Part shown: piece after piece, positions 25,673 through 32,712 of the stretch
How the letters are laid out: every line of letters begins with the position of its first letter
How positions within the stretch are numbered: position 1 is the stretch's first letter
Source: Hymenobacter metallicola
GTDB taxonomy: Bacteria > Bacteroidota > Bacteroidia > Cytophagales > Hymenobacteraceae
Reading direction: 5' to 3'
NCBI RefSeq assembly: GCF_004745645.1
Contig: NZ_SRMB01000001.1
Span: forward strand, 992,001 to 1,056,000
DNA: 64,000 nucleotides
The notes under the pieces: generated by a model
What the model was told of the DNA's origin: nothing
The model's database searches: none
Seen by the model: the letters and a program-made list of their open reading frames with translations, nothing else
Made by a program: the position numbers and the translations under genes

Positions 25673-27286
25673 CTAGAACAGCCGGTGCCGCAGCAGCCAA
25701 CCCGCCGCATCAAACTCGGTGGCCGCGGGCACGTAGCTTTCTACCTTCACGGGCTTCGCTACTTTGATGGTATTCCCGTCGCCACTGTCGTACACCATTA
25801 CGTTGGCCGCTTTGCCCGCTACCGATGTCGGGCTCATTAGCTCCACTACATCCTGCCCCGCCCCGTCGTAGATACCGACTTCGAAGCGGTGGTCGGGCAG
25901 GCCGCGCAACTCAAACGAGTCGTTGCCACCCAGACCAAATACTTTGATAGACCGGGTTTGTCGGTAATCGAAGGTGCGCCGCCCGGTCAGGCTGTCGGGG
26001 CGCCCGGCGGCTAGACTGTACACGCTCACGCGCAGCTGGCCCGGCCCCGTGGGCTCCAGCACGAAGCGCTCGGACTGGTCGGTACCCGGAATTTCAACTT
26101 CGCGGGCCAACAACTCATAGAAGCGGGCGGCCACGGCCGGGAGCTGGGCGCGCCGCCCCCGCAGATTTTCGTCGAACTCGGCCCCGGCTTCGGCATACAC
26201 TTCCTTGGGCCAGAGAGCCAAGGCTCCGCGAATAACGTCGTCGGACAAGCTGCGCTGCATCGAATCGGCGACTTGCTGGAAGTCCTGGGCCGTGAGATAC
26301 ACCAGCAACGACTTGTCCATGGGGCGGGCGGCCCGGTTGAGCCCTTCCACGTCGCCAAGACGGATTTTCTGGTGAAAGCTCTGGTAGTTTGACTTCACCC
26401 AGCCGATGATGTGCGTGAATACGCCGTCGTCGAATTTGAAGAAGGCGTGGTCCCGGTCGCGGGGAATGGCGCGGTAGACTGTGGCCCCGCCGCTGGCCGG
26501 AAAGCTGGCCCAGCGCCACTGGTCTTCCCGCCGGCTCCAGTCGCCGAGCCACATGTCGAACAGGCGGGCCCGTAGGTACCAGCGGGCATCAATGCGGTGC
26601 TTGGGGTTATACACCAGGTTGGTGAAAACCTTACGGGAGCTTTCGACCTTGGCCGAGCGGCCGAAGCTGCTCACAGCGCGCTGGTCGCCTTCCGGGCGCT
26701 CTTCAAACAGGTACAGCGCATTGGCAAAACTTTCGCGAAACGGGCCCAGGGCCGGGTCATCGGCCACGTACACCAGGCGCGGGTTGGTGTGGTATACCCC
26801 CGCGGCGGCGGCCAAAGGCGGCACGATGTAGGCACCGTAGGGGTTGATAACGCTGGTTTGGTCTTTCATGAGCCGCCCAATTGGTCCATCCCGCAAGGAT
26901 TCGGGCAGGGCCTTGGTGGCGTCCTTGTCTACGGACCGGAGCACGTACTGGGCGCCGTTACGGTCCAGCAAGCGCAGGTTGCGGGTTTGAAAGCTGCCTC
27001 CTTCCTGAATAGGGGTTAGGCCGCCGGGGACGGCCGTGCGCAGGTTAAACACGGGCGCCGTTACGGGCGTCGCCCACACCTGCCGGTAATGCTTACCCCA
27101 GAAAAACCGGTGAATAGGTCCTCGTAAATACTGGGTGCCGGCCGCTACGTGCACCGTGGAGTCGGGACCGATGATTGGAGGCGTGACCACCGGCGCAGCC
27201 GGCGCCGAACAGGCACTGAGCAGCAAGCAACTGGCCAGGGTGCCGCCCAGGACAGTCGGGCTCCTCACGAATAGTAGAAAGGACAC
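25673..27286 (-). CDS. Large lipoprotein with degenerate kinase-like motif
   Basis: 537 aa from GTG 27286 (another GTG at 27268 gives an even cleaner signal). Lipobox LLLSAC. It is a full-length paralog of the divergent neighbour: HRFFWGKHYRQVWATPV, YVLRSVDKDATKALP, AAGVYHTNPR, RLFDMWLGDWSRREDQWRW, IPRDRDHAFFKFDDG. In the neighbour the central motif is GDWDRHEGQW; here it is GDWSRREDQW, so the Asp and His expected to act in catalysis are Ser251 and Arg253, while the later Asp pair (Asp277, Asp279) is kept. It may be a pseudoenzyme partner. The kinase analogy is an inference from motif order; the family is otherwise unrecognised. Confidence 0.72.
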   Translation of the reverse strand: MSFLLFVRSPTVLGGTLASCLLLSACSAPAAPVVTPPIIGPDSTVHVAAGTQYLRGPIHRFFWGKHYRQVWATPVTAPVFNLRTAVPGGLTPIQEGGSFQTRNLRLLDRNGAQYVLRSVDKDATKALPESLRDGPIGRLMKDQTSVINPYGAYIVPPLAAAAGVYHTNPRLVYVADDPALGPFRESFANALYLFEERPEGDQRAVSSFGRSAKVESSRKVFTNLVYNPKHRIDARWYLRARLFDMWLGDWSRREDQWRWASFPASGGATVYRAIPRDRDHAFFKFDDGVFTHIIGWVKSNYQSFHQKIRLGDVEGLNRAARPMDKSLLVYLTAQDFQQVADSMQRSLSDDVIRGALALWPKEVYAEAGAEFDENLRGRRAQLPAVAARFYELLAREVEIPGTDQSERFVLEPTGPGQLRVSVYSLAAGRPDSLTGRRTFDYRQTRSIKVFGLGGNDSFELRGLPDHRFEVGIYDGAGQDVVELMSPTSVAGKAANVMVYDSGDGNTIKVAKPVKVESYVPAATEFDAAGWLLRHRLF

Positions 27287-27437
27287 GTAATAGGATCGAA
27301 AGGGCGGAAAAATGACCAGCCGGAGCAGGTCCTGCCCTTATAGCGCAAACCACGGCCCAGCGGTTGTGCTTACTTGGCTGGCCACTTTTATGGCGCAGCT
27401 TCGTTGAAGGACTCAAGTCGCGCCTTTTCTCGTCCCA

Positions 27438-29030
27438 ATGACCGCTCGTTTACTCGCCCTAGCTGCTTTGTTTTCCTGTGCTTCCTGCGTCCGGCAGCAC
27501 TACTTTCAACCCGATGCCCGCGTAACCGGGCCCGCCGTGGCTCCCCTGGCTTCTGACAGCGTGCAGGTAACGGTGGGCCGGCATTACCGCCGCGGGGCTA
27601 TCCACAATTTCTTTATGGGCACTCATTACCGGCAGGTCTGGGCGACGCCGGTTATGCTTCCCGTGCTGGACCTCAACCGGACTGTACCCGGGGGCTTGCA
27701 GGCCGGCAAGATGGGCGGCGGCTTTCAAAGCACGAGTATGACCCTCAATGGGGCTAAAGGCCGGCAGTACGCCCTGCGCACGCTCGACAAGGATCCTTAC
27801 AAGACCTTGCCCAAGGTGATGCGCAAAACATTCCTACTCAATGTTGTGCGGGATGCTACTTCGGCAGCCAACCCCTTCGCCGCCTTTGTGGTGCCGCCCC
27901 TGGCGGAAGCTGCCGGGGTGCTCCATACCAACCCGCGCGCTTTCTACGTGCCGCCCACCGAAACCGGCCTGGGTGCCGCTTCCGAGCTGTTTCAGGGCAA
28001 AGTGGTGATGCTAGAAGAAAAGTACGAAGGCCCGGAGAACCTAACGCCTGCTTTCGGCAATGCCCGCGACTTGGAAGACAGCGACGAAATGCTGGCCCAG
28101 CGCTATGCCGACCCCACCCACCAGATTGACCAACTTGCCTTTGCCCGGGCCCGGCTGCTGGATATCTGGCTGGGCGACTGGGACCGGCACGAAGGTCAGT
28201 GGCAGTGGGCGGTGTACGAAACCGCCGGCCGCACCCTGTACCGGGCCGTACCCAAAGACCGGGACCAGGTATTTTACCGCTTCAGCGACGGCCTGATTCC
28301 CTGGCTGCTCAGCCGGCGCTGGGCGGTGCGCAAGCTCCGCACGTTCAAGCCTCACTACGAGGACATTGGCGGCCTGGTCAAAAACGCGACGTTTATCGAC
28401 GAACGGGCCTTGTCGGAAGTAACCCGGCAGCAGTTTCAGCGCCTAGCCCAGGACTTGCAGCAGCGCCTCACCGACGAGGTTATTGCCCAGGCCACCCACC
28501 GGTTCCCGGCGCCGGTGTACGCCCGGGAAGGCACCCGCACGGCCGCCGCCTTGCGGGCCCGCCGGGCGGCGCTACCCAAAGCAGCTGACACGTTTTACCG
28601 CCTATTGGCCCACCGGGTAACCGTGGCCGGTACCGACCAGGACGAGCGTTTTGTCGTGGAGCGCTTGGCCGATACCAGCACTGTGGTAAGCGTATACCGG
28701 ATTCTGGACAAGGATAAGAAAGCCAAAGCCGATACGCTGCTGTACCGCCGCAGCTTTCGAGTCGATGAAACCCAGCGCATTGTGCTGCACGGCTTGAAAG
28801 GCAAGGACGTCTTCGAGGTGCGCGGCGACGTGAAGCGCGGCATCCGGGTCGATATCTACGGGGGGCCCAACGAGGACGACGTGATGAATACCTCGCGGGT
28901 GCAGCGGGGCGGCAAGAAAACCTTTTACTACGATACCAAGCGCGGCAACACCGTTCTGCGCGGCCACGACTTCAAGGACAACACCACCAAAGGCGTCAAG
29001 ATGCACGCTTACGACCGGGAAGGGTACTAA
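27438..29030 (+). CDS. Large lipoprotein with kinase-like GDWDRH motif
   Basis: 530 aa. The signal LAALFSCASC is followed by a Cys, so it is membrane-anchored and faces the periplasm or outside. Visible blocks: an N-lobe-like part (YALRTLDKDPYKTLP, with Lys118/Lys122), a middle AAGVLHTNPR, then LLDIWLGDWDRHEGQWQW (Asp247, Asp249, His251) and, 23 residues later, VPKDRDQVFYRF (Asp274, Asp276). The spacing of DRH and a second Asp resembles the catalytic loop and metal Asp of Fam20C- and CotH-type secretory kinases. The substrate is unknown. The C-terminal 130 residues form beta strands (KGKDVFEVRGDVKRGIRVDI). It is divergent from its paralog over a 151-bp spacer. Confidence 0.72.
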   Translation: MTARLLALAALFSCASCVRQHYFQPDARVTGPAVAPLASDSVQVTVGRHYRRGAIHNFFMGTHYRQVWATPVMLPVLDLNRTVPGGLQAGKMGGGFQSTSMTLNGAKGRQYALRTLDKDPYKTLPKVMRKTFLLNVVRDATSAANPFAAFVVPPLAEAAGVLHTNPRAFYVPPTETGLGAASELFQGKVVMLEEKYEGPENLTPAFGNARDLEDSDEMLAQRYADPTHQIDQLAFARARLLDIWLGDWDRHEGQWQWAVYETAGRTLYRAVPKDRDQVFYRFSDGLIPWLLSRRWAVRKLRTFKPHYEDIGGLVKNATFIDERALSEVTRQQFQRLAQDLQQRLTDEVIAQATHRFPAPVYAREGTRTAAALRARRAALPKAADTFYRLLAHRVTVAGTDQDERFVVERLADTSTVVSVYRILDKDKKAKADTLLYRRSFRVDETQRIVLHGLKGKDVFEVRGDVKRGIRVDIYGGPNEDDVMNTSRVQRGGKKTFYYDTKRGNTVLRGHDFKDNTTKGVKMHAYDREGY

Positions 29031-29108: not shown

Positions 29109-30230
<1,122 letters not shown>

Positions 30231-30585
30231 ACGAAATAGCAAGGCCAGCCCTTGTTGGCTGGTTCCTTCTTTTGTACGCAGAATGACGGCCAAGGTAAGC
30301 CCGACGCTCTGACAGGACCGGCCGCGGGCGGGGGCAAGCTGGGAAATAGCCCTGCTGAATATTTTTTCGCCCTTCTACCGCCAGCCTCGCACCCCAAAGT
30401 CTGTTCTGCTAACCCTCCCACACTCAGGGGCCAATCGGGCGGGAGCCAGACCGCCTACCCGGCCTACAACGCACGTGGCGCAACGGAAGGCGGGTATTAG
30501 GCGTATCGGGCGAAAGACTTTTGGCACCGTTTTTTCTTTTGGCTGCCTACCCTCTCCTTTCGTTTTTCCTTTAATTTCTTTTCTC

Positions 30586-31401
30586 ATGCATCGTTTACTC
30601 CTCAAGCCCTGGCTTCTTTTCGGGCTGGTTGCGGCTTCCCTGGGCTCAGTTTCCTGCTCCAAAGACGGTGACGGCGTCCTGCTGTTCTCCATTGAAGACG
30701 ACCGGACCCTGGGCGACCAGGTAGCCCGCCAGACGGACTCGCTCATGCGCGTCGACCCCAATAAATATGGCCGGCTGCTGGAACGCAGCAGCAACAGCGC
30801 CGCCTACGCGGCCCTCGACAACGTGGTGAATAAGGTGCTCAACTCGGGCCAGCTGACCTACCGGAACGAGTTTCCCTGGGACGTGAAAATTGTGCAAAAG
30901 GACGAGAAAAACGCCTTTGCCACGCCCGGCGGCCACATTTACGTATACACGGGCCTGATTAAGTACCTCGACCACGAAGCCGAGCTAGCCGGTGTTATTG
31001 GTCACGAAATTGCCCACGCCGACCGCCGCCACACCTCCAAGCAGCTGCAAACCCAGTACGGCCTGCAAGTACTGCTGGGCCTGCTAGTCGGCGACAACCC
31101 CAACCAGCTGGTGCAGATTGCCGCCGGCCTGGGCCAGTTGCAGTTTAGCCGCAACGACGAGAGTGAAGCGGATGACTACTCGGTACGTTACCTCAGCGGC
31201 ACTGAATATTCCTGCGACGGCACGGCCGGCTTCTTTATCAAGTCGTCGAAAGAGAGCCCCAACAACACCCCAACTTTCCTGAGCACCCACCCCAACCCGG
31301 AAAACCGCGTAGCGGCTATTCAGGCCAAAGCGCAGGAGCTGAACTGCCGCAATAAGCCCCAGAACGACACCAACCTGAACCGCCTCAAGAGCTTGCTCTA
31401 A
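30586..31401 (+). CDS. M48 family metalloprotease lipoprotein (BepA/LoiP-like)
   Basis: 271 aa from ATG 30586; the longer frame from 30475 would put residues before a normal lipoprotein signal (LGSVSC). Zinc site HEIAHADRRH, third ligand in DESEADDYSV, upstream strand FATPGGHIYVYTGLI. Near the end LSTHPNPENRVAAI, typical of the family. Such proteases clear misfolded outer-membrane proteins in the periplasm. A second M48 gene lies about 6 kb away. Confidence 0.93.
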   Translation: MHRLLLKPWLLFGLVAASLGSVSCSKDGDGVLLFSIEDDRTLGDQVARQTDSLMRVDPNKYGRLLERSSNSAAYAALDNVVNKVLNSGQLTYRNEFPWDVKIVQKDEKNAFATPGGHIYVYTGLIKYLDHEAELAGVIGHEIAHADRRHTSKQLQTQYGLQVLLGLLVGDNPNQLVQIAAGLGQLQFSRNDESEADDYSVRYLSGTEYSCDGTAGFFIKSSKESPNNTPTFLSTHPNPENRVAAIQAKAQELNCRNKPQNDTNLNRLKSLL

Positions 31402-31424
31402 GCTCCTAAGGTTCAGCGCTACTC

Positions 31425-31450
31425 AGGCCTGCTACTCCGGTAGCAGGCCT
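31425..31450 (+). terminator. Terminator
   Basis: Stem aggcctgcta / tagcaggcct, loop ctccgg, then five T, 23 bp after the M48 gene. Confidence 0.9.
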
Positions 31451-31542
31451 TTTTGTTGGGCCTTGGCCGGCCGGCCCGCGCAACACCGGCGGGGCCTGTA
31501 CGCGTAAGGCGTATAAAATTGCTTGCTTTCTTTACGCCCACT

Positions 31543-32712
31543 ATGGCTCCTCTACTCAACCGACTCGGCGACTGGGCCGAAAAAGCGGACGACCTGATTT
31601 TGCGGACCCGCACCCGCCTGGGACTGCTCGACCCGCTGCAGATTGTTCCCTACCGCAGCTACGGCACGCCTACCCGGCTCTACGTGAAAGGTCGCCTGCT
31701 GACCGACAAGGGCATAGGGGAACCCGACCCGAGCGACTCGCGCTGGCACAACCTGCTGAATATGTACCGGCGGTTTGAGAGCAACGAAATTGCCGGCGCC
31801 CAGCTGCTGGTGCGCCCGGCCGATAATTCCGAGCATTTGACCGTTACCGACGACGAAGGCTACTTCTCCCTGAACCTGGAACCGGGGGCCCTGCCCGAGC
31901 CCATCAATTACATGTGGTACCCGGTGGAAGTGCTGCTCCAGGCCGTACCCGGCTCTATTCCGCTGCCGGCGGGCCTGGCCACCCAGGCCCCGGTTATGAT
32001 TCCGCCGGCCGATGCGGAGTACGGCATCATCAGTGACCTGGATGACACCGTCATTCAGACCTCGGCCACGGATATGCTGCGCATGGCCCGCACGGTACTG
32101 CTGCGCAATGCCCGCTCCCGCCTGCCCTTCAAAGGTGTGGCAGAGTTTTACCGGGCCTTGCAGCTGGGCCGTAATGGCAAGCGCAACAACCCGTTTTTTT
32201 ACGTAAGCAGCAGCCCCTGGAACCTCTACGACTTGCTGGAGGACTTTCTGAACCTAAACCAGATTCCGCCGGGCCCCTTGCTGCTGCGCGACTTTGCCGT
32301 GGTGCGCAAGGCGGCCAAAGACACCTCGGAACACCACGGGCACAAGCTCAAGGAAATCGACAACATTCTGCTCACCTACCCTACGCTGCCCTTTGTGCTC
32401 ATCGGCGACAGTGGGCAGGAGGACGCCAACATCTACCGCGAAGTAGTGCGCCGGCACCCGGGCCGCATCCTGGCCATCTACATCCGCGACGTGCTACGTC
32501 CCGACCGTGCCACGATGGTAGAACGCGTATCGGAGGAATTGCGGGGCGACAAAGTGGAAATGCTACTGGTGCAGGACACGGTGCAGGCTGCCGAACACGC
32601 GGCCCGAACGGGCCTGATTTTCACGGAGGCCATTCCGGCGGTAGTCGAAGAAAAGCAGAAAGACGAAACCACCCCGGCCGACCCTGGTGAGGCCCAGGAA
32701 GAAGGCGCCTAG
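31543..32712 (+). CDS. App1-family phosphatase (DUF2183)
   Basis: 389 aa from ATG 31543. The N-terminal half is a beta-sandwich (VTDDEGYFSLNLEPG). The C-terminal half is a HAD-type phosphatase: ISDLDDTVIQT carries the DxDxT nucleophile motif, SSSPWNLYDLLEDF follows and IGDSGQEDANIY gives the acidic end motif. Yeast App1 with this domain dephosphorylates phosphatidate; bacterial substrates are unproven. No signal peptide. The last 30 residues are acidic and disordered. Lipid-related genes (DagK-like) occur about 3.5 kb on, but not in one operon. Confidence 0.92.
   Translation: MAPLLNRLGDWAEKADDLILRTRTRLGLLDPLQIVPYRSYGTPTRLYVKGRLLTDKGIGEPDPSDSRWHNLLNMYRRFESNEIAGAQLLVRPADNSEHLTVTDDEGYFSLNLEPGALPEPINYMWYPVEVLLQAVPGSIPLPAGLATQAPVMIPPADAEYGIISDLDDTVIQTSATDMLRMARTVLLRNARSRLPFKGVAEFYRALQLGRNGKRNNPFFYVSSSPWNLYDLLEDFLNLNQIPPGPLLLRDFAVVRKAAKDTSEHHGHKLKEIDNILLTYPTLPFVLIGDSGQEDANIYREVVRRHPGRILAIYIRDVLRPDRATMVERVSEELRGDKVEMLLVQDTVQAAEHAARTGLIFTEAIPAVVEEKQKDETTPADPGEAQEEGA

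Follow-up and report, generated by a model that had tools for sequence, protein, structure and literature searches.

A divergent pair of exported kinase-like lipoproteins in Hymenobacter metallicola and their Bacteroidota relatives

A divergent gene pair and its motifs

The window analysed here, a stretch of 64,000 nucleotides from Hymenobacter metallicola, contains two genes for exported lipoproteins that point away from each other across a 151-bp intergenic region (27287-27437, no strand assigned). P0001, of 537 amino acids, is encoded at 25673-27286 on the reverse strand, and P0002, of 530 amino acids, at 27438-29030 on the forward strand. This arrangement had been noticed in a first-pass annotation made from the letters alone, which also described the two proteins as alike along their whole length. 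Both observations hold, and the 39% identity over 520 aligned positions (E = 4e-114) puts the homology of P0001 and P0002 far beyond chance. A consensus search for the Bacteroidetes-type promoter TTTG-N-TAnnTTTG found none in the 151-bp gap or elsewhere in the window.

The sequence motifs reported for the pair are likewise in place. P0002 carries the complete catalytic-loop motif GDWDRHEGQW at residues 246-255 (28173-28202, forward strand) and, with 23 residues from D249 to P272, the segment PKDRDQ at residues 272-277, which includes a metal-binding-type DRD motif (274-276; 28257-28265, forward strand). In P0001 the corresponding loop reads GDWSRREDQW (248-257; 26516-26545, reverse strand), so that the catalytic Asp is replaced by Ser and the His by Arg, and PRDRDH follows at residues 275-280 with its DRD retained (277-279; 26450-26458, reverse strand). 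The claim that both proteins are lipoproteins stands with one restriction. The lipobox of P0001 is clean (LSAC) and that of P0002 is less typical (CASC), with a Cys before xR(Q)..FQ.DA that recurs among its orthologues. Some P0001 orthologues, however, lack the lipobox Cys, and lipidation of P0001-type proteins is therefore not universal.

Two small proteins adjoin P0001 (24590-25009 and 25240-25665, both on the forward strand); the two are paralogous (26% identity, E 2e-10) and match no Pfam family. On the other side, many Hymenobacteraceae have the neighbors at 29109-32712 in the same order relative to the pair. They comprise a gene at 29109-30293 (reverse strand) that we take to be topoisomerase IB-like, an M48-like gene at 30475-31401 and an APP1 phosphatidate phosphatase gene (PF09949) at 31453-32712, the latter two on the forward strand.

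Predicted fold and conserved residues

Neither protein gave a usable match to Pfam or NCBIfam models, nor did a sequence search of the PDB with P0002 alone or with a family profile. The CotH model (PF08757) matched neither P0001, P0002 nor 56 family members, nor any protein of the same genome, and a Fam20C family model matched none of these two proteins and 56 members. The cut-offs of HipA_C (PF07804) and PI3_PI4_kinase (PF00454) were not reached by the pair or by the 56 members; the single HipA_C match in the genome is a different gene, and PF00454 was found in none of 99 sampled Bacteroidota genomes. As judged by these models, P0001 and P0002 are not members of the CotH, HipA_C, PI3_PI4_kinase or Fam20C families.

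Structure prediction gave confident AlphaFold models for P0002 (pLDDT 92.7, pTM 0.92; alignment of 56 relatives) and P0001 (pLDDT 91.1, pTM 0.91; alignment of 43 relatives), and both models have a two-lobed kinase-like fold, as the first-pass annotation had supposed. For the P0002 model the best PDB matches by Foldseek were CtkA (5e-5), PI4KIIalpha (5e-5) and CotH (2.7e-4). VIA-align gave Z 14.8 to PI4KIIbeta over 245 residues, Z 14.5 to CotH over 248 residues, Z 13.1 to CtkA and Z of about 11 to PI3K and HipA. The P0001 model returned the same set of kinases, aligning to CotH with Z 14.7 (257 residues) and to PI4KIIbeta with Z 14.6 (262 residues), and for both models kinases alone occupy the top of the PDB match lists. 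The kinase-like domain corresponds to residues 73-390 of P0002 (27654-28607, forward strand), the range aligned to PI4KII and CotH, and to residues 76-391 of P0001 (26114-27061, reverse strand), the range aligned to CotH. Residues 393-530 of P0002 form a beta-rich C-terminal region with a GG.G.D-like sequence. This region found no match when the models were compared with the PDB. In one relative there is a weak match to RTX calcium-binding repeats (E 0.028).

The order of secondary-structure elements in the P0002 model fits that of a kinase. Two strands (88-93 and 100-104) flank GGGxQT, within which G93-Q97 (GGGFQ; 27714-27728, forward strand) is a candidate Gly-rich loop by conservation and by DSSP of the model. 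A third N-lobe strand (110-115) is followed directly by K118 (27789-27791, forward strand), and then come a helix (132-143) with the invariant D139, a strand (189-195) with E193, a helix (232-245), the catalytic loop, two strands and the DRD motif. In the order of elements, the conserved GG, R114 and K118 come where a Gly-rich loop and candidate nucleotide-binding basic residues would be expected. P0002 has both the Asp of the catalytic position (D249) and the later Asp of metal-binding type (D274), and in P0001 the former is gone and the latter present.

Profile comparison points the same way. In hhalign the profile of the kinase part scored 30.8 against CotH relatives, compared with 18.8 for the reversed profile and a mean of 15.5 over 60 column-shuffled decoys (sd 3.0, maximum 23.5). 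Against HipA_C it scored 28.8, with a shuffled mean of 14.3 (sd 2.2, maximum 21.7) and 18.6 for the reversed profile. The raw hhalign probabilities to CotH and HipA_C are low, about 5%, so these alignments are support rather than proof. Moreover, a second CotH subset scored 22.5, which is not significant (decoy maximum 24.0), and the CotH link therefore consists of one subset together with the structural match. In the alignments, RARLLDIWLGDWDRHEGQW falls on HipA RRMVFNVVARNQDDHTKNI, with D249 on the Asp of the HipA DDHxxN motif and Q254 on its Asn, and PKDRDQVF falls on CotH PYDYDNTL, with DRD on the CotH DxD. In most of the family the two Asp residues lie 25-26 positions apart, close to the spacing of D228 and D251 of CotH, whose D228Q and D251A variants have been described as catalytically inactive (PMC7821199).

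Residue conservation was read from 181 aligned relatives. G94, R114, K118, D139, R239, D242, D247, D274, R275 and D276 are invariant (181/181), and E193 is kept in 180. At the position of D249, 135 proteins have Asp, 44 have Ser and 2 have Gly; at that of H251, 142 have His and 39 Arg; and at that of Q254, 174 have Gln and 7 Asn. The Asp and His of the loop and the later Asp are thus conserved, with the first Asp replaced only in defined clades. Since the loci of the collection scan were picked up by patterns that contain these motifs, the unbiased check comes from 27 fusion proteins that were retrieved on the similarity of the whole protein, 26 of which have D249 and all 27 D274. The suggestion that Lys118 and Lys122 could serve in ATP binding is compatible with the invariance of K118, but K122 is present in only 64 of the 181 relatives; R114 is a further candidate for a nucleotide-binding basic residue.

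A Bacteroidota family with recurring Asp-less copies

Relatives of the pair occur in 112 of 296 sampled Bacteroidota genomes, and none of the 100 genomes sampled from the window's taxonomic family lacks them. They come in three architectures, in which X denotes the domain shared with P0001 and P0002: phosphoesterase-X-barrel proteins of about 1250 amino acids, X-barrel proteins of about 900 and X alone at about 530. The genome of the window has two further copies of the domain, in the middle parts of L003 (1334 amino acids) and L004 (1245 amino acids), which gave matches with E 1e-97 and 7e-90. The N terminus of L003 is a calcineurin-like phosphoesterase (PF00149, 2.5e-7), and the C termini of L003 and L004 resemble Omp85-family barrels (2e-18 and 6e-16, both below the NCBIfam cut-off).

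L004 (L004:313-4050, forward strand; at about 1.37 Mb on contig G000:C6) has key residues changed in both of its active sites. Its catalytic-loop motif is DFGKHEDNW, and in 30 of 30 orthologues from the genus and family the catalytic Asp is Gly. The same 30 have altered phosphoesterase ligands, with the first Asp changed to Asn, Asn-His to Asp-Lys or Asp-Arg, and the last His to Tyr or Phe. A Zobellia protein (L118) belongs to the L004 clade, and L222 is a further Gly copy. From these results, the genome of the window contains two copies with a complete motif (P0002 and L003), alongside two conserved ones in which the catalytic Asp is missing (P0001 and L004). Losses of the catalytic Asp were tallied by clade and not as independent statistical events. 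Among the fusion proteins with a DRH motif, 10 of the 62 that were read combine degenerate phosphoesterase ligands with an intact kinase-like motif (L080, L081, L098, L103, L104, L105, L108, L115, L126 and L132). The kinase-like part is therefore kept independently of the phosphoesterase, and the idea that the two sites are always lost together is rejected in this one direction.

The Ser copies form a coherent group. The 39 proteins with Ser-Arg-Arg constitute one clade (support 100), and together with five Ser-Arg-His proteins from Pontibacter they form a clade of 44 (support 99), all of which retain R114, K118, D139, R239, D242, D247, D274, R275 and D276. The pair also recurs. A divergent DRH neighbor lies beside all 20 Ser-type loci from same-family genomes that were fetched without motif bias, and the DRH/Ser pair is present in named Hymenobacter and Rufibacter genomes. 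The two copies are about 3.5 kb apart in Adhaeribacter soli and in tandem in Pontibacter. In 10 of 14 further genomes, where no Ser copy had at first been seen next to the fetched gene, the two genes are adjacent, and every Ser copy read has a DRH copy beside it or within a few kilobases.

The Ser copy is also the better conserved of the two. Among 38 gene sets holding both genes (703 genome pairs, with the locus counted once from the window and once from its source genome), it was more conserved than its DRH partner in 634 pairs, with a mean amino-acid identity of 0.69 versus 0.61. In close pairs dN is well below dS (for P0001 and L036, dN 0.04 and dS 0.72), the mark of purifying selection. 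One copy of the pair had been called inactivated at first pass, and this is correct insofar as the catalytic Asp is lost, but the Ser copy is a maintained protein under stronger constraint than the Asp copy. With 44 such proteins in one clade, "inactivated" is best read as a maintained pseudokinase, and decay of P0001 as a pseudogene is rejected. Disrupted reading frames occur in individual genomes: in Hymenobacter qilianensis (L101:6001-7583) the DRH copy is split over two overlapping frames with the Ser copy intact, and a relative of P0001 (G375:C21:57047-58297) has three in-frame stops, reflecting either a pseudogene or an assembly error.

Proposed function, alternatives and comparison with known systems

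P0001 and P0002 represent a new family inside the known protein-kinase-like superfamily. The idea that the locus encodes an extracytoplasmic kinase-like protein together with a pseudoenzyme is supported by the predicted fold and by residue conservation. P0001 and P0002 are extracytoplasmic proteins of an unannotated Bacteroidota-wide family, and we consider it probable that P0002 is an active envelope phosphotransferase with P0001 as its pseudokinase partner. P0002 would hold a Mg-nucleotide between the Gly-rich loop, R114/K118 and the DRD Asp, with the metal held by the DRD Asp and Q254, and D249 would act as the catalytic base on an envelope protein, glycan or lipid. P0001, with its nucleotide- and metal-site residues kept and its base gone, would most probably bind and regulate P0002 as a pseudokinase, by analogy with Fam20A and Fam20C, although adjacency and co-conservation of the two genes do not in themselves prove such binding. 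Counting against an active phosphotransferase, the metal-site residue is mostly Gln rather than Asn, and the resemblance to known kinases is too faint at the sequence level to be picked up by Pfam, NCBIfam or a PDB profile search. Little free ATP is to be expected in the periplasm or at the cell surface, which leaves the donor for P0002 uncertain.

This same want of an obvious ATP supply, along with the persistence of several clades without the catalytic Asp, would suit a kinase-derived module that binds or scaffolds envelope proteins or barrels without catalysis and keeps its residues for stability. We regard this as rather unlikely, given that the full catalytic set is kept in most members across the phylum, even where the phosphoesterase domain has degenerated. 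It is somewhat less likely still that the kinase fold serves another reaction such as AMP transfer, with the Ser and Gly copies also being enzymes of the SelO type. In SelO, a pseudokinase whose fold is protein-kinase-like, the group transferred is AMP (PMC10298544). K118, E193, D274 and D276 are present in all 44 members of the Ser clade, whose evolution is slower than that of the Asp copy, and at least two separate clades have lost the base while keeping the other residues, apart from the further Gly copy. However, nothing points to an inverted nucleotide geometry as in SelO, and the Asp is retained in most of the family, so that ordinary phosphotransfer is the likelier ancestral reaction. 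Finally, the Foldseek TM-scores are low across the full 530-residue chain, which carries extra regions, and one might ask whether the kinase-like match is a modelling coincidence concealing an unrelated fold. This is highly improbable, since two separate predictions place kinases alone at the top with Z 14-15 over about 250 residues, and the sequence profiles align in the correct catalytic register.

The preferred reading, an active phosphotransferase with a pseudokinase partner, has wider implications. Pairing of a complete site with an Asp-less neighbor suggests that the cell envelope hosts a form of phosphate chemistry not yet explored. A bolder and doubtful extension is that the outer membrane of Bacteroidota has a phospho-modification system that joins kinase-like domains, phosphoesterase domains and Omp85 barrels in single polypeptides or works through lipoprotein pairs, each active form having a conserved pseudo-form that regulates it or performs nucleotide chemistry of its own. 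In Gram-negative bacteria, phosphorylation outside the cytoplasm has received little study and lacks an evident source of nucleotide, and a family that is this common, absent from Pfam and NCBIfam and often fused to a phosphoesterase and a barrel would make the question directly testable. We found no description of the family in the largely open-access literature that was searched. A 2014 survey of Omp85 proteins makes no mention of a phosphoesterase fusion, and OMP76 of Riemerella, considered as a possible relative, was rejected because it is a TonB-type barrel. What is new is that the kinase-like domain occurs together with a phosphoesterase and a barrel of the outer membrane, and that pseudo forms recur.

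Several known systems resemble parts of this arrangement. The type II phosphatidylinositol 4-kinases give the highest structural match to P0002 (PI4KIIbeta, about 245 residues) and, like it, have a DR motif with a metal-binding Asp further on, but they are eukaryotic lipid kinases with about 11% identity to it. HipA and CtkA align their R-R..FN....NxDDHxxN with R-A-R-L-x-D....GDWDRHxxQW (Z about 11-13); they are, however, cytoplasmic toxin-antitoxin kinases, whereas P0001 and P0002 carry an export signal and lack the HipA partner domains. The spore-coat protein kinase CotH shares the fold (Z 14.5-14.7), the register over the catalytic Asp and DxD, and the Asp-Asp spacing. In contrast, the family described here is Bacteroidota-wide, has no Pfam CotH match and occurs as lipoproteins and as phosphoesterase and Omp85 fusions. 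The metallophosphoesterase-X-Omp85 proteins of Bacteroidota, here L003 and L004, have a middle domain that is 35-38% identical to P0002; they are longer, at about 1250-1330 amino acids, and place this domain between a phosphoesterase region at the N terminus and an outer-membrane barrel at the C terminus. The pairing itself recalls Fam20C and Fam20A, in which a pseudokinase paralogue activates an extracytoplasmic secretory kinase (PMC4421793). That system is eukaryotic, its structural resemblance to the pair is weak (5yh2, E 0.024 with P0001), and Fam20A lost a Glu rather than the catalytic Asp. The conserved active/pseudo pairs would be a bacterial counterpart of Fam20C and Fam20A, with many natural replicates.
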